Part shown: one piece after another, positions 18,337 to 51,087 of the stretch
Layout of the letters: each line of letters starts with the position of its first letter
Numbering within the stretch: the stretch's first letter is position 1
NCBI RefSeq assembly: GCF_000426725.1
Contig: NZ_AUFX01000005.1
Location: 310,001 to 374,000 of the forward strand
Direction of reading: 5' to 3'
Length of the DNA: 64,000 bases
From: Sporocytophaga myxococcoides DSM 11118
Lineage (GTDB): Bacteria > Bacteroidota > Bacteroidia > Cytophagales > Cytophagaceae
Translations under genes and position numbers: made by a program
The notes under the pieces: generated by a model
The model's database searches: none
What the model was told of the DNA's origin: nothing
What the model saw: the letters and a program-made list of their open reading frames with translations, nothing else

Positions 18337-18704
18337 TATGCTTTTTCCTCCTGTTTTTCAGCTGATTTCTTAAATTCACCTTTTCTTCTCTTGTTGTTGT
18401 AAGCAACAGCATGTTTGTCAAGAGATACAGTCAAGAATCTCATCACTCTCTCATCACGTTTGTACTCAATCTCCAAAGTGTTGATTGTAGTAGGCTTCGC
18501 GTTGAATTCGATAAGCGTGTAGAAACCTGTAGTTTTGTGGTTAATAGGGTAAGCTAGCTTTTTCAGACCCCAGTTCTCCTCGTTAATGATTTGAGCACCC
18601 TGATCTTTCAGAACCTGCTTAAATTTTTCTACGGTATCCTTCATCTGAGCTTCAGACAAAACGGGAGTTAAAATGAATACCGTCTCGTAGTTATTTAATT
18701 CCAT
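18336..18704 (-). CDS. rpsF: 30S ribosomal protein S6
   Basis: Small-subunit protein bS6 (122 residues). Recognised by [20 protein letters not shown], then [20 protein letters not shown], with [20 protein letters not shown] in the C-terminal half and a charged tail. First gene of the rpsF-rpsR-rplI operon. No ssb gene lies between rpsF and rpsR, unlike in several other phyla. A Bacteroidota-type promoter is visible just upstream (18741-18770). Confidence 0.98.
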
Positions 18705-18740
18705 AATTACTTTTATGTAAAATGATAATTTTTAGGACCG

Positions 18741-18770
18741 CAAATATACTGAGAATTACCGGAAAACAAA
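18741..18770 (-). promoter_or_regulatory. Promoter of rpsF operon
   Basis: Read on the minus strand: TTTG (18770-18767), an 18-base spacer, then TATATTTG (18748-18741), matching the Bacteroidota TTTG/TAnnTTTG promoter. The rpsF start is 36 bp further on. Confidence 0.7.
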
Positions 18771-18858
18771 AAAATCTTTGGAAGAGGTTTATTTATAAGG
18801 GATGTTTTTGTTGTAAGTTTTTGAAATATAGTGTTTTGGCTGGTATGTAAACAACAAA

Positions 18859-18881
18859 CCCCGACGATCATCTCGTCAGGG
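18859..18881 (-). terminator. Terminator after the coiled-coil membrane protein
   Basis: Nine-bp stem CCCCGACGA (18859-18867) with TCGTCAGGG (18873-18881), including one G-T pair, with a 5-base loop. It lies about 50 bp past the stop of the minus-strand gene at 18928. Confidence 0.7.
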
Positions 18882-18885
18882 TCTC

Positions 18886-18926
18886 TTTATACTTTTAGCT
18901 TTACGCCTTAAGCTTTCCGCTCAAAA
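18886..18926. repeat. AAGCTTTAAGC-type dispersed repeat, copy b
   Basis: Words TTTAGCTTTACGCC, TTAAGCTTTCCGCTC in tandem, just past the stop of the gene at 18928. Same family as the copies near 1600 and 28345. Confidence 0.5.
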
Positions 18927-18927
18927 A

Positions 18928-19869
18928 TTACTTCACTAAGAAGCTTCCTTCTCCGATTTTATTACCTTCTGCATAAACTTCAATATTGTGTTTTCCAGGT
19001 TTGTAGGCGCTTCCTTTAACATAGGTGAAAACAACCTGAGGTTTTCTGTTGTCGAACAACACATCTTGTTTCAATGTGTAAAAAATCTCTTTTCCTTCAA
19101 ACTGAAAGCTTCCTCCTCCTGTTCCAACATCAAACAATGCGCTTCCGTCTGGCTCGATTACTCTAAGAACGATTTCTTTACCTTCCTGTTTAGCTACTTT
19201 GTTGTCGCCTAAGTAGAAAGAAATTTTTAGTTTGTCAATGCTTTTTGCTTTAAACTCACCACCGTCTTTAACTTTACCTTTAGCTGTGATCGCATCTATC
19301 TGGAAGCTTTCTGCTTTTAATACACTGGCTATTGCCACTTTTTCAGCAAGTTCGTTTTGGGTAACTTTTAATTTACTGATAGTGTCCAGGTTGGCTACCA
19401 CTTTATTCTGGTAATCTTTAATGCTGGAATCAGCCACTGCAAGCTGAGCTTTAAGTCTGTCAACTTCAGCAGAAGCTTCACGAGCAATCTGGTTTGCCTT
19501 ATCTATTTCTTTCTTGATTTTAATGTATTTGCTGTAGTTAGCAGCACTTTCATGTTTCAGTTTTTCGCTTTCAACTTCAAGATTCCTGATTTGCTCACCA
19601 AGGGTTGCGGTGTCTCCTCCAAGTCTTGCAATCTCCTGTTGTTTTAATTTCAGGTCGTCAATTGCTTTGGTCAACTCTGAAGTTGTGCTGTCAATTTTTG
19701 CGTTTGCTTCAACAATTTGTTGGTCCTTTACTGCAATATCATTGCTTTTGTTGATATTGAGAAAAAGTTGTACGGCATTGATAGCCAATAAGATAATAAT
19801 GAAAGCAATGATCAAGCCTTTTTTGCTTCCGCTTTTTTGCGTTTCTTTTGGTTCGTTAACTTCGGCCAT
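18928..19869 (-). CDS. Membrane-anchored coiled-coil protein, 313 aa
   Basis: Conserved-looking protein of unknown role. A basic cytoplasmic start (residues 1-16) leads to a single membrane helix (about 17-37, GLIIAFIIILLAINAVQLFL). A long coiled coil of about 150 residues follows (KIDSTTSELTKAIDDLKLKQ, then EQIRNLEVESEKLKHESAAN). The C-terminal domain of about 120 residues is beta-rich (GGEFKAKSIDKLKISFYLGD ... ALFDVGTGGGSFQFEGKEIF). The shape suggests an envelope scaffold with the coiled coil in the periplasm. It is divergent from the methyltransferase at 19979 and ends in a hairpin. Confidence 0.75.
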   Translation of the reverse strand: MAEVNEPKETQKSGSKKGLIIAFIIILLAINAVQLFLNINKSNDIAVKDQQIVEANAKIDSTTSELTKAIDDLKLKQQEIARLGGDTATLGEQIRNLEVESEKLKHESAANYSKYIKIKKEIDKANQIAREASAEVDRLKAQLAVADSSIKDYQNKVVANLDTISKLKVTQNELAEKVAIASVLKAESFQIDAITAKGKVKDGGEFKAKSIDKLKISFYLGDNKVAKQEGKEIVLRVIEPDGSALFDVGTGGGSFQFEGKEIFYTLKQDVLFDNRKPQVVFTYVKGSAYKPGKHNIEVYAEGNKIGEGSFLVK

Positions 19870-27871: not shown

Positions 27872-28451
27872 TTAAATTAAAATAATTAAGTTTAACTGAA
27901 TCTCCTATTTCCAATAAAATTAACGCTTTTTCGCCTCATTGTGCAATTATTTTTGCTTTAGGTGATCAATTTAAATTTCAGATATTTGTCTGTCCTTTAA
28001 TCGATTGATTCTCTTTGGTTAAGAAAGCCAGGCTGAACGAGCATTTTACGCTTCGAAAATAATGTCGTTTTTTAATCCGGTATCTCTCCAAACGAAGCTT
28101 TTACTAACCGGTTGACGAATAAACATCAATTTTATTTCAAAATTTATACTTTCTCAAATTTTAAAAGACATTCAATCCAGTATATTTTCAAAATTTCTGG
28201 GAAAGTGATTTTTAAAATTAAGATAAAATGAAATGCAGGTAAGATAATTGTTTATTTTATTATACACATATTTTGCACTTGTGGGCTGTGGAAAGGATGT
28301 GGATAAGTGGGAGATTGTTGGATGTTAGAGAGTTAAAATATCGAAAAGCGTAAAGCAGAAGGCTGAAAGCAAAAAGTCAAAACCTCAGGTTTTGACTTTT
28401 TGCTTTTAAAACTTTCCGCTTTCCGCTTTCCGCTTTAAGCTTTTAGCTTTA
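27872..28451. other. Intergenic gap between parA and yidC: candidate replication origin (oriC)
   Basis: AT-rich 580-bp stretch with no gene. It contains TTATACACA (28260-28268), which fits the TTATNCACA DnaA-box form, and TGTGGATAA (28298-28306), the exact complement of TTATCCACA. Two weaker TGTGG words lie between them (28280-28288, 28287-28295). Very AT-rich DNA (about 28100-28260) lies beside this cluster. The flanks are yidC on one side and parA-parB on the other, the gene set usually found at bacterial origins. The end toward yidC is a long hairpin of the AAGC repeat family. The origin call is inference and needs skew data. Confidence 0.4.
28343..28450 (-). terminator. Long hairpin after yidC, built from the AAGC repeat (copy d)
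   Basis: Core arms of 20 bp, AAAGCAAAAAGTCAAAACCT (28366-28385) and its exact complement at 28387-28406, around a single central base. Outer flanks of AAGCGTAAAGCAGAA type on one side and repeated CTTTCCG words on the other extend it imperfectly. It lies directly after the yidC stop on the minus strand and is a strong transcription stop or structural element. Confidence 0.75.
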
Positions 28452-31974: not shown

Positions 31975-32212
31975 TATGTTTCGTCTTATAAATTTATACA
32001 AAACCCTTTTTTTGTGTATTATTTTTTTGAAAAGCAGAGAATGTGAAACTTTAATAAGAATATACCATGAATCCACCTTTGGGAAATGGAAATCCATCAA
32101 AATAAGTTCTATCATTCTTACTTTTTGATTATCTTGTGAAGTTGTTTTCTGCAAAAAAGGCACACCAAATCAATTGTTTAACGGATATATTTTGATAGTT
32201 TGGATTGTATTT

Positions 32213-35200
32213 ATGCGTGAAAAAATATCATTTACCTGGAAAATTTGTGTTTTATTTTTATTGAGTCTGGGCTCTTTTGAGGCCTTGGCTCAGTGTGCTT
32301 TACCAGAATTGTATGATTTAACTTACGCAAATCCAAGCTCTTCCCAGACTTGGATCCATTGTATCGATAACGAAACTGATCCGGATACTTATAATCTGGA
32401 GTTGATGTCTCCTCATGATGTTCAGAATTATACCATTGACTTTGGTGATGGTTCTGCTGTTGTATCTGGCGCTCTCTGGTCTTCAAATACTGTAATTTCC
32501 CATTTATTTGGTTTAGGAAAATTTACAATAACACTTTCTGAAACCAAATCTGGTTGTACCAAGAAAACAATAACAAGTACTTTTATCAATGACAGAAAAG
32601 CAGGGGCCGCAGCTTTACCGCCTACCATCGGAGCCAGTACTTGTGCGCCCAATATCCTTTCATTCAAAAACACGTCCACCAATACTTCTGCTTTTACAAA
32701 ATTTGAATGGTCTTGGGGAGATGGGACTAAAGATGTGGTTGATGCTTCTAATTCAGGTCAGGTGACGTCGCATATTTATAAAAAAGGAACATCCAGTTGT
32801 AATATGATTGTCCGACTCACTGCCACAGGTTTGTGTGATGCATCATTTGCCAGTTATGGTCCTTTTAATTTTTGGGATACTGATTCTGCTATCATCAGTG
32901 CTTCCGTGCAGCAAATTTGCGGGGCAGATTCGGTGACATTTAAGGATGTTTCTAAATATAATTGTAATAATAAGCAGGCAAGGAAAATAAAATGGATTTC
33001 CTCTGATTTGGGGATTTCAACCCCATGGCTTCAGGCCACTCCCGTTAATAAATCTCTTAAAGCTTTTATTACTGGGCCTCCAGGTGCTATTTATAATATT
33101 ACACTTTTGGATTCTAACTTTTGTGGAGTGAATCAGACTTCTATGAAAGTGGAAGTTATTGATCCTCCTGTTTCTCAATTTACCGCTTCAACTGCTGCAA
33201 TCTGTAGCGGGGACTCAGTATTATTTCAAAATACTTCAACTGGTGGAGCAAACAGATTCAAATGGAATTTCGGTGATGGAACGGGCTGGATAGAAAATAA
33301 TAATCCCACGCTTTACCATAAATACAGTATTGCAGGAAACTATACTATCAAAATGGCTTCAGTCCAGGACAAGGCTCTTGGTTGCTCTGATACTTCTAGT
33401 TCGACAGTTTCCGTATTAGGCCTTCCCCAGGCGAATTTTACTTTTGATAAACCTACTGGTTGTGGAAAGGCTTCTGTGTTGTTTAAAAATACATCGGTAA
33501 ATACATCCTCTTTTACATGGGACTTTGGAAATGGAACGACTCAATCTGGTGCCGGTCCCTGGACTATTGATTTTGAACCTGGTTATTATAGTGTTAAATT
33601 GGTAGGACGAAATAGTCTTAACTGTATCTCTGAAAGAAGTGCAGCAGTAATTGTGCCTTCCGACATTTCTTTAAATATTTCATCTGATCCGGTTTGTTTG
33701 GGAGATTTTAATGTATTTAAAAACTTAACAGATTTAATGCCTGCGGTATCTTGTGCTACAGGATCAATTTTGAGAGAACAATGGGATAATATCACCGGAG
33801 CTGCTACCGTTGCGACGTTAACAGCCAATGTTAATTTTCCGAACAAACCGTCCAGAACTTCATTACTGACCAACTATTTTGAAGGTCCTGTTAATATTGG
33901 TGATAATTATGGTTCCAGAATTTATGGATTTATATGTCCTCCTGTAGACGGTATATATACCTTCTGGATCTCAAGTAATGGAGATTCTGAACTCTGGCTT
34001 AGTTCAAGTGCAAAGGTTTCTGATAAAACAAAAATAGCTTATGTGTCTGGTACTACTACATTAAGGCAGTGGAACAGATATATTTCTCAGCAGTCATTAC
34101 CTGTTTTTTTGAAAGCCAATCAGAGATACTACATTGAAGCCCTGCATAAAGAAAGTAATCTGGATGATCATTTATCTGTTGGATGGCAATTACCTGATGG
34201 AACTTTTGAAAGACCGATTCCTGCAAAATATCTTAGCCCATATATGCCGGGAACCGAGATTACATCCTGGTCATGGACCTTTGGAGATGGGGGGAGTGCT
34301 TCGGTAAAAGAACCTGTTCATTTATATGACGCTCCGGGAAGTTATGAAGTAATCATTGAAGCTGCTACTGATGTCTGTAAAAGGAAAGATACAATTTATA
34401 CTGTTGTCTCACCTTTGCCGGTTCCTTCTTTTGATTCTGATAAATGGAATGGCTGCACACCCTTTGATCTTAAGATTGCTAATAAATCACAAAATACTTT
34501 TGCATATGATTGGAGTTTTGGTGATGGTTCGCCAGGACTGATTACTTCAGATAATTTAGATACGATCACACATACTTATTTAAATAAAGGGAGCGATCTT
34601 TTGGAATTTCCTTTGAAACTAATTGCCAAATCCGATAAAGGGTGTATGGATACGTTAATACAAATTATTACTGTTTATCCGGATCCCGTAGCTGATTTCT
34701 TGTTCACACCTCAGGCTCCTCAGTGCAGCCCGTCCAATATAAAGCTAGCCAATAATTCATCTTTAGCTTCGTCCTTTAAGTGGACTATTCAAGGTAAGGA
34801 TACTATTGTCAGTTCAATGGAATTTAATCACACTTTTGTGAACAAGACTGGTATAGTGAAAGATGAGTCTGTATCGATCAGAGCTATTACAGATCATGGT
34901 TGCTTTTTAGAAAAAAGCAAAACTATAATTGTATATCCGGAACCTGAGTTTAAAATTGAAGCCAAACCTAAAGAAGGTTGTCATCCTCTAATAGTGGGTT
35001 TGTCTTCTGAAGGAGCACAATATAAGTTTAACTGGGATTTCGGAGATGGTTTTAAATCCTCATCATCGACACCGATACACGTTTTTAACAACATTACAGA
35101 TAAGGATACTCTGTTTCGAATTTCACTTAATGCCTTATCTTCATTTAATTGCTCAGCAACGGTTTACGACACAGTCATTGTACATCCTAAACCTGAAGCT

Positions 35201-36736
35201 GACTTTAATGAATCTGTTTCTTTCGGATGCAGTCCTTTATCAGTAAGGTTTTCTAATAGCAGTCAAAAAGCTGGATGGTATAAGTGGGATTTTGGAGATG
35301 GTGTATTACTGGATACTTTGTTTGGAGATGTTTCGCATGTGTTTGAGAATAAAACCGGTTTGGTTAAAGAGTTTTATGTAAAACTGATTTCGGGGACTGA
35401 TAATAATTGTGCGGATACTTTGATCAGAAAGATTTCTGTCTTTCCAGAAGTATTTCCTGATTTCGTTGGGGAAATGGAAGGATGCAGTCCTTTCAAGACT
35501 AAGTTTGCTCCATCAGGTTCATTAATATCAAATTATACCTGGGATTTTGGAGATGGCAGTACTTCATTGGAAACTTCTCCTGTCCATATTTTTCAGAATT
35601 CTTCCGCAAAAGACACTGTATTTAATGTGATTCTGAAAGTTAAATCAGTGCATAATTGTGACGCAGAAATAACTAAGCCTGTCGCTGTCTGGGCTGGTCC
35701 TGAAGCAAAGTTCACAGTTGCCTCAACAACCATACAGTTACCTGATTCTGCAATTTATATAACTAACAATACTGTTGCAGGAGATTTTGAAATTAAATGG
35801 GACTTTGGTGATGGAAGCAATTCCATAATAAGAGATCCTCAGGTGCATTATTATGGTTTCTATGGGAATTATAAACTCACGCTTTCTTTAAATACAGGTA
35901 AATGTACAAGCACATTTACCAGAGATATAAGTGTGTTGCCGACTGCGCCAATTGCCAGTTTTACAGGTGAAGGGGAGGGGTGTTTGCCTTTAGAGATATC
36001 GTTTAACAATACATCTAAATTTGCAGAACAATATTTATGGGAATTTGGAGATGGCGAGACATCCGTACTTAAAAATCCAAAGCATAATTATGGTATCGCA
36101 GGCGATTATTCGGTAAGATTATCAGCAAAAGGATTGGGTGGTGAAAACTATCTCCTGAAAGATTCAATCATACATGTAAGACCTGTACCAGTTGCTTATT
36201 TCATAGCCCAGCCTAAAATAGTTTTTATCCCTGATCCGATTTTCTTTAATAATAAATCTACTAATGCTATAAAATATATTTGGGATTTTGGAGATCTAAC
36301 ATCTTCTATAGACGTAAGTCCTTCTCATGTATATAAAACATCAGGTAGATATAAAGTAAAGCTTACTGCTGAAAATGAATTTGGATGTATAAATATTTAT
36401 GAGTTGGATGATGCTGTAATAGCTGAAGAAGGCGGTTCAATTGAAATTCCAAATGCCTTTACACCAAATCATGGAGGCTCAAATGGAGGAAGAAAAGATG
36501 GAAGTGGGTTAAATGAGGTCTTCTATCCGCGCTTACATGATGTTGCTGAATTTTATATGGGGATCTATAACAAGTGGGGAGAAATGCTTTTTGAAACAAG
36601 AGATTCTTCAACTGGTTGGGATGGCTATTATAAAAATCAACTTTGTCCGGAAGACGTGTATGTATATAGGATCAAGGTAAAGATGCCAAGTGGGAAGGTG
36701 AAAGAATATGCTGGAGATATTACTTTGATATGGTAA
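32213..36736 (+). CDS. Giant secreted PKD-repeat protein with PA14 and CHU_C (T9SS type B) domains
   Basis: Exported 1507-residue surface protein, counted from ATG 32213. Start MREKISFTWKICVLFLLSLG is a signal peptide with a likely cut after ALA, before QCALPEL. About twelve PKD-like units are marked by FGDG-type motifs (FKWNFGDGTGW, YDWSFGDGSPG, YTWDFGDGSTS, YLWEFGDGETS). A PA14-like domain at about residues 521-676 (GIYTFWISSNGDSELWLSSS, ANQRYYIEALHKESN) interrupts them. The C-terminal 100 residues (IEIPNAFTPNHGGSNGG ... YNKWGEMLFETRDSSTGWDG, ending ITLIW) are a CHU_C domain for type IX secretion. PA14 suggests carbohydrate contact. The in-frame start at 32174 is less likely because it lengthens the signal peptide with hydrophobic residues. 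It precedes a PorP/SprF gene. Confidence 0.93.
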   Translation: MREKISFTWKICVLFLLSLGSFEALAQCALPELYDLTYANPSSSQTWIHCIDNETDPDTYNLELMSPHDVQNYTIDFGDGSAVVSGALWSSNTVISHLFGLGKFTITLSETKSGCTKKTITSTFINDRKAGAAALPPTIGASTCAPNILSFKNTSTNTSAFTKFEWSWGDGTKDVVDASNSGQVTSHIYKKGTSSCNMIVRLTATGLCDASFASYGPFNFWDTDSAIISASVQQICGADSVTFKDVSKYNCNNKQARKIKWISSDLGISTPWLQATPVNKSLKAFITGPPGAIYNITLLDSNFCGVNQTSMKVEVIDPPVSQFTASTAAICSGDSVLFQNTSTGGANRFKWNFGDGTGWIENNNPTLYHKYSIAGNYTIKMASVQDKALGCSDTSSSTVSVLGLPQANFTFDKPTGCGKASVLFKNTSVNTSSFTWDFGNGTTQSGAGPWTIDFEPGYYSVKLVGRNSLNCISERSAAVIVPSDISLNISSDPVCLGDFNVFKNLTDLMPAVSCATGSILREQWDNITGAATVATLTANVNFPNKPSRTSLLTNYFEGPVNIGDNYGSRIYGFICPPVDGIYTFWISSNGDSELWLSSSAKVSDKTKIAYVSGTTTLRQWNRYISQQSLPVFLKANQRYYIEALHKESNLDDHLSVGWQLPDGTFERPIPAKYLSPYMPGTEITSWSWTFGDGGSASVKEPVHLYDAPGSYEVIIEAATDVCKRKDTIYTVVSPLPVPSFDSDKWNGCTPFDLKIANKSQNTFAYDWSFGDGSPGLITSDNLDTITHTYLNKGSDLLEFPLKLIAKSDKGCMDTLIQIITVYPDPVADFLFTPQAPQCSPSNIKLANNSSLASSFKWTIQGKDTIVSSMEFNHTFVNKTGIVKDESVSIRAITDHGCFLEKSKTIIVYPEPEFKIEAKPKEGCHPLIVGLSSEGAQYKFNWDFGDGFKSSSSTPIHVFNNITDKDTLFRISLNALSSFNCSATVYDTVIVHPKPEADFNESVSFGCSPLSVRFSNSSQKAGWYKWDFGDGVLLDTLFGDVSHVFENKTGLVKEFYVKLISGTDNNCADTLIRKISVFPEVFPDFVGEMEGCSPFKTKFAPSGSLISNYTWDFGDGSTSLETSPVHIFQNSSAKDTVFNVILKVKSVHNCDAEITKPVAVWAGPEAKFTVASTTIQLPDSAIYITNNTVAGDFEIKWDFGDGSNSIIRDPQVHYYGFYGNYKLTLSLNTGKCTSTFTRDISVLPTAPIASFTGEGEGCLPLEISFNNTSKFAEQYLWEFGDGETSVLKNPKHNYGIAGDYSVRLSAKGLGGENYLLKDSIIHVRPVPVAYFIAQPKIVFIPDPIFFNNKSTNAIKYIWDFGDLTSSIDVSPSHVYKTSGRYKVKLTAENEFGCINIYELDDAVIAEEGGSIEIPNAFTPNHGGSNGGRKDGSGLNEVFYPRLHDVAEFYMGIYNKWGEMLFETRDSSTGWDGYYKNQLCPEDVYVYRIKVKMPSGKVKEYAGDITLIW

Positions 36737-36737
36737 C

Positions 36738-36840
36738 AAAGCGTAGAGCTTAAAGCTTAAAGTTAAAAGTGTAAAGTTTAAAGTAAAGTCGATGATTTTA
36801 ACTTTAAATAAAGGCTTAAAGTTTTGTGACAAAAACTTTG
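36738..36840. repeat. AAGCTTAAAG-type dispersed repeat, copy e
   Basis: Starts just after the stop of the PKD gene: GCTTAAAGCTTAAAGTTAAA words and then the inverse (TTTTAACTTTAAAT ... GGCTTAAAG), giving an imperfect hairpin. Confidence 0.5.
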
Positions 36841-36855
36841 ATAGTAACATCGACA

Positions 36856-36889
36856 CTAAAGTCCTTCTCCTTCAGGAGAAGGACTTTAG
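36856..36889 (+). terminator. Terminator after the PKD giant
   Basis: Perfect 16-bp arms CTAAAGTCCTTCTCCT (36856-36871) and AGGAGAAGGACTTTAG (36874-36889) around two bases. A very stable hairpin between the PKD gene and the porP-like gene. Confidence 0.75.
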
Positions 36890-36983: not shown

Positions 36984-38045
36984 ATGCCATCTGCTCATAC
37001 ATTTTTGAGCTCTAAGCTTTCCGTTTTCAACTTTCAGCTTTTCGCTTTAAGCTCACTGCTTTTTGCTTTAAGCTTAACTGATTACGCCTTTGCCCAGGAC
37101 ACCCAGTATTCCCAATACTATGCAGCTCCGCTTTATCTTAATCCTGCTTTTGCCGGAGCTACTTATGAAAGCAGGGCAATGTTTAACAACAGATATCAGT
37201 GGGTAAATTTGCCAAAGCCTTTTATTACTTATGCAGCATCGTTAGATCATAATTTTGAAAAGTTCAGAAGCGGGGTGGGGTTGATGGCGATGCTGGATAA
37301 AGCAGGTGCGGGAGCCTTAAAATCAGCCTCTATAAGCGGTATGTATTCTTTTCGTGTAAATCTGTCGAGCAAATTGGTTTTCAGACCAGGAATTCAATTT
37401 GGCTATGTTTCAAGAAGCATCGATTATTATAACCTTACCTTCGGAAGTCAGATTGACGGAGTTCCTGGAATTCCTTATGATGTAGCAGGCAAAAGCTCGA
37501 GTATTAATTACTTCGACTTTGGAGCAGGTTTTTTATTCTATAATAATAAATTTTGGATGGGAATGGCATCTAGCCATATCAATCAGCCTGATCAGTCATT
37601 GAATACAGGTGGGAATAAACTCCCAATAAAAACAACACTTCATGGTGGTGTAAAATTTTTTCTGAAAGAGGGAGTGCACAAAAAGAAATATGGAGAACAA
37701 AAAGAAAGAAGCATTTCTCCGACCTTTGTGTACAAACATCAGGAGCGTTTCGACCAGCTCGATCTTGGATTATACGTCTGTTATGAACCTGTTGTGACAG
37801 GACTTTGGTACAGAGGGATACCTTTTAAAAGATATAATCAGGCAAATTTCAATCATGATGCAGTTGTAGTAATGGTAGGAGTGCGAACAGACAGATGGGG
37901 AATTGGCTATAGCTATGATCTTACAATTTCTAGCCTGACAGCTACAACTACTGCCGGAGCACATGAGTTTTCATTGTCATATGTTTTTAAGACCAGGAAA
38001 ATAATAAGAAGGAAAGATATGGTTATTCCTTGTCCTAAATTTTAA
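36984..38045 (+). CDS. PorP/SprF family type IX secretion membrane protein
   Basis: 353-residue outer-membrane protein of the PorP/SprF family, needed in other Bacteroidota to export or anchor a partner surface protein. The mature part begins around QDTQYSQYYAAPLYLNPAFA, the family start. GATYESRAMFNNRYQWVNLP and the alternating beta strands follow (FSLSYVFKTRK near the end). The signal peptide (residues 1-38, ending DYAFA-Q) is encoded by an AAGCTTTAAGC-type repeat at 37010-37076. The upstream neighbour is the PKD/CHU_C giant, a pairing like SprB-SprF. ATG 36984 follows AAAAGGAATTAGA, which contains a usable ribosome-binding site. Confidence 0.9.
   Translation: MPSAHTFLSSKLSVFNFQLFALSSLLFALSLTDYAFAQDTQYSQYYAAPLYLNPAFAGATYESRAMFNNRYQWVNLPKPFITYAASLDHNFEKFRSGVGLMAMLDKAGAGALKSASISGMYSFRVNLSSKLVFRPGIQFGYVSRSIDYYNLTFGSQIDGVPGIPYDVAGKSSSINYFDFGAGFLFYNNKFWMGMASSHINQPDQSLNTGGNKLPIKTTLHGGVKFFLKEGVHKKKYGEQKERSISPTFVYKHQERFDQLDLGLYVCYEPVVTGLWYRGIPFKRYNQANFNHDAVVVMVGVRTDRWGIGYSYDLTISSLTATTTAGAHEFSLSYVFKTRKIIRRKDMVIPCPKF
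37010..37076 (+). repeat. AAGCTTTAAGC-type repeat inside the signal-peptide coding region (copy f)
   Basis: Words CTTTCCGTTTTC, AACTTTCAGC, TTTTCGCTTTAAGC, TTTTTGCTTTAAGC in tandem, like those near 28430 and 51050. In frame they encode LSVFNFQLFALSSLLFALSL, the hydrophobic part of the signal peptide. Confidence 0.65.
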
Positions 38046-45340: not shown

Positions 45341-45375
45341 AACTTTTGACTTTCAACTTTCAGCTTTCCACTTTT
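45341..45375. repeat. AAGC-type dispersed repeat, copy g
   Basis: ACTTTTGACTTTCAACTTTC words, then AGCTTTCCACTTTT. Upstream of guaA; same family as the copies near 28430 and 51020. Confidence 0.4.
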
Positions 45376-50893: not shown

Positions 50894-50944
50894 TTAAAAG
50901 CAGAAAGTTAAAGTAGTCTTTGGACCTTTGCTTTCTGCTTTTAA
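50894..50944 (+). terminator. Terminator after proC, made of AAGC repeat (copy h)
   Basis: Perfect 14-bp arms TTAAAAGCAGAAAG (50894-50907) and CTTTCTGCTTTTAA (50931-50944), 23-base loop, then TTTTTG. The arms are built from the dispersed repeat words. Confidence 0.75.
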
Positions 50945-51012
50945 TTTTTGATACCAATGAGCCATTTTTTAGGCAGATGAATTCAATAGATTGGGGAGAA
51001 TAACTCCTTTTA

Positions 51013-51087
51013 AAACTTTTAACTTTAAGCTTTCAACTTTTCTCTTTTTAAAAACTTTTCGCTTTAAGCTTTCTGCTTTAAGCTTGA
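51013..51087. repeat. AAGC-type dispersed repeat, copy i
   Basis: Run of ACTTTTAACTTTAAGC, TTTCAACTTTTC, TTTTCGCTTTAAGC and TTTCTGCTTTAAGC words, the densest copy outside the yidC hairpin and close in sequence to the signal-peptide copy at 37010-37076. Confidence 0.6.

Follow-up and report, generated by a model that had tools for sequence, protein, structure and literature searches.

The window analysed here is a stretch of 64,000 nucleotides (G000 C3:310001-374000) from the 6.34 Mb genome of a soil-dwelling Sporocytophaga species. This source genome (G000) was compared with one genome from each of three other Sporocytophaga species (G001, G002 and G003); the Sporocytophaga loci L031 and L032 match contigs of G002 and G003 by length and add no further species to the count. 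The window holds a gene of the PorP/SprF family, the type IX secretion membrane proteins, whose PF11751 match of 221.5 bits compares with a curated cut-off of 22.3. The gene starts 247 nt behind a 4.6-kb gene that carries a type IX secretion signal of its own (Table 1). In the gap between the two genes there is a 22-nt palindrome, TCCTTCTCCTNNAGGAGAAGGA, which has 17 sites in the genome (13 exact and four with one mismatch; none for a reversed control), at least seven of them within 200 nt of a heptad array. Promoters of the Bacteroidetes type have the form TTG-N17-23-TANNTTTG. No full match to this form was found between ~320 nt upstream of PorP and 30 nt into the gene in the four species, and -7-like words alone occur in this stretch in G001 (inside the gene) and in G002. 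The missing full match is compatible with co-transcription of PorP and the upstream gene as well as with separate transcription.

Table 1. Genes, arrays and other features at the PorP/SprF locus and at further array sites (positions within the window).
Feature	Position	Strand	Basis
Gene with PKD repeats, PA14 and CHU_C type IX secretion signal	32174..36736	+	domain matches
AAAG-sense heptad array, 15 nt after the stop of the upstream gene; partner arm in folding models	36752..36783	-	
Palindromic repeat TCCTTCTCCTNNAGGAGAAGGA between the two arrays	36862..36883	.	dispersed in genome
PorP/SprF-family gene, 353 aa	36984..38045	+	PF11751 E=2e-65, 221.5 bits; ORF
Inferred signal peptide, 37 aa, inferred cleavage between A and QD	36984..37094	+	translation, hydropathy; end from homologue alignment
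In-frame heptad array, 11 TTTNNRY-type units, 8 with TTT start, last partial, ~residues 7-32	37004..37080	+	
AAAG-sense (28345-28376) and CTTT-sense (28396-28450) intergenic arrays by the end of a yidC-like (60KD_IMP) gene	28345..28450	.	
CTTT-sense intergenic array	45343..45374	+	
AAAG-sense and CTTT-sense intergenic arrays	50897..51079	.	

The initial annotation had proposed that the hydrophobic part of the PorP signal peptide is encoded by repeat-like DNA, and the peptide LSVFNFQLFALSSLLFALSL with its CTTT words is indeed found in that place. The in-frame heptad run is real and is larger than first stated. Its units are TTTGAGC, TCTAAGC, TTTCCGT, TTTCAAC, TTTCAGC, TTTTCGC, TTTAAGC, TCACTGC, TTTTTGC, TTTAAGC and TTAACTG, which in the PorP frame read as LSSKLSVFNFQLFALSSLLFALSL, and PorP's own frame is the only one of the three forward frames without a stop through the array. 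The 7-nt phase of the CTTT words is absent from the initial annotation. The inferred signal peptide has a maximum 12-residue hydropathy of 2.15, and its c-region, which lies 3' of the array, is non-heptad. A true start downstream of the repeat, the possibility that was named against this reading, is disfavoured: in G000, G002 and G003 there is no in-frame ATG, GTG or TTG from codon 8 to codons 66-73, where the next candidates already belong to the PorP mature domain (the internal candidates in G001 are codons 25, 27 and 35).

One explanation for such an array is convergence, in which a T-rich, leucine- and phenylalanine-rich signal peptide resembles heptads by its composition alone. Hydrophobic, T-rich codons are to be expected in signal peptides of any kind, and heptad order was rejected as the cause of the hydrophobicity. 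In random frames, 5.5% of nine-unit sense arrays were open and hydrophobic, as against 2.5% of random 63-mers from the window and 19.6% of base-shuffled arrays, so the hydrophobic advantage comes from T content; with AAAG-sense arrays none of 20,000 trials yielded an open, hydrophobic stretch. Yet the phase of the TTT words argues against convergence. In the four PorP orthologues 8/11, 9/11, 13/13 and 11/14 units carry TTT in one heptad phase, and this was reached by one of 20,000 synonymous recodings for G000 and by none for G001, G002 and G003 (20,000 each). The phasing goes beyond what recodings of the same peptide give and is therefore a DNA-level pattern, not codon usage alone. Two further points stand against convergence, namely that the array length differs between species by exactly three units and that an AAAG array of the same heptad class lies in the gap upstream of PorP in four of four species. 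Nor is the same 7-nt phase common among the paralogues: the 12 of the 20 other PorP/SprF matches in G000 that were read have ordinary-looking N-termini with, at best, 1-5 of 10 units TTT-phased (L189 is the highest, with 5 of 10 in one phase). Convergence is improbable on these grounds. Three PorP/SprF matches, at G001 C4:2409, G002 C63:3142 and G000 C3:590771, contain one in-frame TAG.

Outside the genus 26 PorP homologue loci were found, of which 25 are usable, L054 lacking the gene start. In 24 of these 25 no heptad match lies in the 150 nt that precede the barrel, and L062 has a single one; by eye the N-termini of these homologues resemble ordinary signal peptides. Homologues outside the genus have unrelated N-termini, a point in favour of the repeat origin given in the initial annotation. 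The same annotation had counted orthologues with the same signal-peptide DNA, together with a lack of similar repeats elsewhere, as evidence against its view; the first part of this is the case, since the orthologues do share the signal-peptide DNA, and the second is not, since similar repeats do exist elsewhere. As the array is absent from the outside-genus homologues and the paralogues examined, these sequence comparisons point to an origin of the array signal peptide in the line leading to Sporocytophaga, in PorP only as far as examined.

When one array-coded signal peptide was used to search the four Sporocytophaga genomes, 75 matches were obtained, which include the four PorP genes, a duplicate in G003 and others; seven of the others were read and the rest were judged from the match table. 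Several candidates were rejected as array-coded signal peptides. L174 and L176 are one conserved, non-heptad protein, L175 has an ordinary N-terminus without heptads, L177 (G001) has a TAA inside the array, and in L095 the array precedes a likely later start, as judged by reading the sequence. The frame of L117 (G000) has no stop within the array; since its counterpart in G001 is L177, with the in-frame TAA, the L117 array is treated as untranslated. L173, L178 and L179 have arrays in open frames and are candidates for coding only.

The PorP array belongs to a repeat class that is abundant in the window and in the genome. CTTT words in the window are spaced by 7, 14 and 21 nt on 30, 26 and 27 occasions, compared with 5-17 for each other distance between 4 and 30. 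The pattern CTTTNN[GA]CTTT occurs 33 times on both strands of the window (mean 4.5, maximum 11 in 50 first-order Markov simulations), and a three-unit pattern, CTTTNNRCTTTNNRCTTT, has 193 matches genome-wide vs 5 for its reversed control. These 193 places comprise 98 and 68 that were listed in full and another 27 (CTTTNNGCTTTNNACTTT), covered as far as they are among the matches listed; from the listed places we read 74 loci with 96 arrays. Strict-pattern matches number 98, 83, 154 and 247 in the four Sporocytophaga genomes, and among the other 114 relatives the maximum is 20 (G005), followed by 13 (G087) and 10 (G014). Of 395 genomes sampled from the phylum, 92 carry one or more strict matches, with highs of 38 in G213 and in G139, so the class is not confined to Sporocytophaga. 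The reversed control TTTCGNNTTTCGNNTTTC is itself frequent elsewhere, with 208 matches in G020 of the same order and 34 and 35 in G121 and G362 of the same phylum, and these counts suggest that other Bacteroidota have heptad classes with a different unit.

The placement of the arrays follows a rule. Called ORFs of at least 70 aa are touched by 23 of the 96 arrays, 20 on the opposite strand (16 by at most 22 nt) and three on the same strand; among these three, the PorP array alone was judged to be translated. If ATG ORFs of 100 aa or more are counted as genes, AAAG gene-sense arrays begin within 30 nt after the stop codon in 55 of 64 array-gene neighbours (median 7), vs none of 59 neighbours for CTTT-sense arrays (median 98; Fisher P 7e-26, with neighbours treated as independent). 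One locus with unusually dense arrays, L108 (G000 C11:6872-7337), has CTTT-sense units over ~230 nt that overlap a 1587-nt ORF on the opposite strand.

An array-coded signal peptide is inferred in four of four PorP orthologues, with a matching start region and the same end before QD, and its inferred lengths are 37, 37, 42 and 44 aa; the PorP proteins of G001, G002 and G003 are 92-94% identical. The coding array has three more units (21 nt) in G002 and G003 than in G000 and G001, and in G002 6 nt are missing after the array. Over 37.5-38.9 kb the DNA identity is 90.5% for G000-G002, 89.5% for G001-G003 and 87.1-87.4% for the other pairs. If this pairwise identity, from which the species tree was read, gives the true tree, the closest pairs are G000-G002 and G001-G003 and the 21-nt difference needs at least two events. 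The signal peptide changes quickly. Its dN is 0.17-0.30 vs 0.014-0.027 in the mature part, and its dS of 0.12-0.35, on 22-27 sites, is below the mature dS of 0.51-1.01. With so few synonymous sites the signal-peptide dN/dS of 0.6-2.6 shows fast change and not a selection regime, and a claim of selection on the peptide was dropped. When the first 37 residues are compared for each of the block's 27 ORFs, PorP ranks as least conserved with respect to both G001 (21/37; next 29/37) and G002 (23/37; next 31/37). Against G003 the figure is 22/37, where another ORF has 22 of 32 aligned residues and two ORFs are unaligned.

A repeat whose unit length is not divisible by three lies here inside the DNA of the inferred signal peptide, and the same is true of the CTCTT repeat in the signal-peptide region of the Neisseria opa outer-membrane protein, as given in the excerpts of PMC3960869 and PMC3899988. 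One possible option is therefore a phase-variation switch of the opa type, in which slippage by 7 nt shifts the frame and turns the porin on or off; an out-of-frame reading of the coding array does hit a stop 19-41 codons later in the four species. Yet no run of identical, slippage-prone units was found in the four coding arrays, which are heterogeneous and contain 0, 1, 2 and 1 identical neighbouring unit pairs. Moreover all four alleles, from one genome per species, are in frame, with the array changing in length by 21 nt only. In opa, according to the same excerpts, the unit number switches the gene, whereas PorP combines heterogeneous units and in-frame alleles with a class that is mainly intergenic. 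We find such a switch very doubtful.

Another question is whether the repeat was recently mobile. The initial annotation had pointed to similar words in non-coding DNA, which are present at 28345-28450 and 51016-51079, and had regarded the repeat as one that landed at the PorP start. The class is dispersed and most numerous in Sporocytophaga (83-247 strict matches, with at most 20 in the 114 other relatives), and in G003 a tandem duplicate of the PorP start and array segment lies just upstream of the gene with 84% identity over 143 columns. This duplicate (C9 ~227549-227829, L140) forms an upstream frame of ~26 codons that is followed by a stop. The array sites themselves, however, are old. 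The three intergenic sites of Table 1 are all kept in G001-G003. Arrays near 18885, 28400, 45343 and 50900 have counterparts in a collinear place in the three other species, and the last three of these were confirmed by alignment; site A (18700-19450) is outside the flank-mapped alignments, and its counterparts are at the collinear place near the block edge. At the aligned sites 28400, 36741, 45343 and 50900 no difference in presence or absence, and hence no empty site, was seen among the four genomes, at ~87-91% DNA identity. Array length does vary: relative to G000 the alignment of the 45343 array differs by 14 nt in G001 and by 1 nt in G003, unlike the 21-nt steps of the coding array. Copied terminal inverted repeats were also looked for at 14 paired sites, where the own arms are no more alike than the arms of other sites, and own-partner scores no better than swapped-partner scores led us to reject the array pairs as inverted-repeat elements. 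Of the proposed repeat origin, the dispersed class, the gain or loss of units and the hydrophobic translation hold; recent mobility, with sites common to four species, is not supported, and a recently mobile repeat inserted at the PorP start is very unlikely.

The intergenic arrays may instead be looked at as RNA. When the sequence from the upstream stop to ~110 nt into PorP was folded, the AAAG array region paired with the signal-peptide array in the models of all four species, with 37-47 bases of the first 60 nt pairing inside PorP per species and z-scores of -6.4, -4.0, -3.9 and -6.0 (100 dinucleotide shuffles). Genome-wide, with 20 shuffles each, stops that are followed by an AAAG array have a mean z of -3.24 (n=57) vs -1.47 for controls (60 of 169; P 5e-6). 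Downstream pairing takes in half or more of the array bases at 31 of 52 AAAG-after-stop sites, and a CTTTNNRCTTT lies within 250 nt at only 24 of 57. No excess of complementarity to the own partner was found at the 14 pairs or across species at PorP, where co-evolving arms were dropped as an argument because the duplex energies are no better within than between species. Since own partners pair no better than swapped ones, pairing needs the unit class only, and the RNA stem may follow from composition. The folding results are consistent with a register-tolerant stem at the 3' end and also with a by-product of composition. The most likely role of the intergenic arrays is that of 3'-end RNA structures, in which the AAAG array after a stop would pair, in any register, with CTTT-rich sequence further on. 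A more tentative idea, which we consider rather unlikely, is that the same ~75 nt encode most of the PorP secretion signal and form the 3' arm of a long, register-tolerant RNA stem with the AAAG array that follows the upstream gene for a type IX secretion substrate, enclosing the PorP start codon.

Heptamer repeats are known from other bacteria. In passages of PMC4692102, the Xanthomonas GGGAATC and Nostoc GGGGA(C/T)T heptamers are described as mostly intergenic and enriched on the coding strand 0-50 nt downstream of stop codons, and two Xanthomonas species have most of them in the same intergenic places, with varying length. The Sporocytophaga class shares with them the 7-nt period, the mostly intergenic copies and the strand-specific placement after stops. 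In contrast to those G-rich, quadruplex-capable units, the Sporocytophaga unit is CTTTNNR with a free NN, without the GGGAATC unit or quadruplex G-runs, and one of its arrays has been recruited as a signal peptide. TAACTGA heptamers, another dispersed 7-nt repeat with a different unit, are reported from Beggiatoaceae, cyanobacteria and five Bacteroidetes, and their translation cycles through one peptide; the passages of PMC4679880 consulted report overlaps with ORFs but no signal peptide, and the word 'hydrophobic' is absent from them. The genome on which that work centres has them mostly just upstream of start codons, which is rare for CTTTNNR arrays (of the neighbours before a start, 4 of 31 in CTTT sense and 0 of 37 in AAAG sense lie within 30 nt of it). 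In yeast, as outlined in the extracts of PMC7005711, thymine-rich intergenic DNA gives hydrophobic peptides of the transmembrane type once it is translated. The yeast case concerns whole new ORFs, whereas at PorP it is the signal peptide of an established bacterial gene and a 7-nt class. Within the titles and abstract openings of the open-access literature searched, no description was found of the CTTTNNR heptad class or of a signal peptide provided by an intergenic heptad array.

A more probable mechanism than those weighed above is that the PorP/SprF signal peptide comes mostly from a degenerate 7-nt array of an old, mainly intergenic 3'-end class, with the overlap and the replacement of an earlier signal peptide suggested by sequence comparison and the export predicted. 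We give this a probability of roughly 0.78. It builds on the array and its frame, on its presence in four orthologues and its absence from the homologues and paralogues examined, on the 21-nt steps and on the intergenic placement rule, all of which are observed. In an ancestor of the genus, the 3'-end structure of the upstream gene would have come to overlap the PorP start with its CTTT-sense arm, and this arm, judging from the outgroup homologues and with no intermediate among them, would have replaced the older signal peptide. Translation of a T-rich sense array would yield leucine, phenylalanine, alanine and serine. As 7 and 3 have no common factor, such an array also gives the same cyclic peptide in every frame, stops apart; for both reasons it could serve as a signal peptide. 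Selection may then have kept the frame, the start and the general hydrophobicity, allowing turnover by three units and the drift of single residues. Once the array is translated only three-unit changes keep the frame, which matches the 21-nt steps seen.

The origins of signal peptides are rarely visible; at PorP the DNA still shows the source, and its change can be followed across four species. A mainly intergenic repeat class would supply the hydrophobic core of the inferred export signal of an outer-membrane protein. The strand rule of AAAG arrays after stop codons points to a 3'-end element of Sporocytophaga, of which no description was found in the literature searched. If the dual role of the PorP array were true, it would link the 3' end of one message with the translation of the next, and the intergenic heptad arrays of the genus would be a standing reservoir of secretion signals that are readable in any frame.
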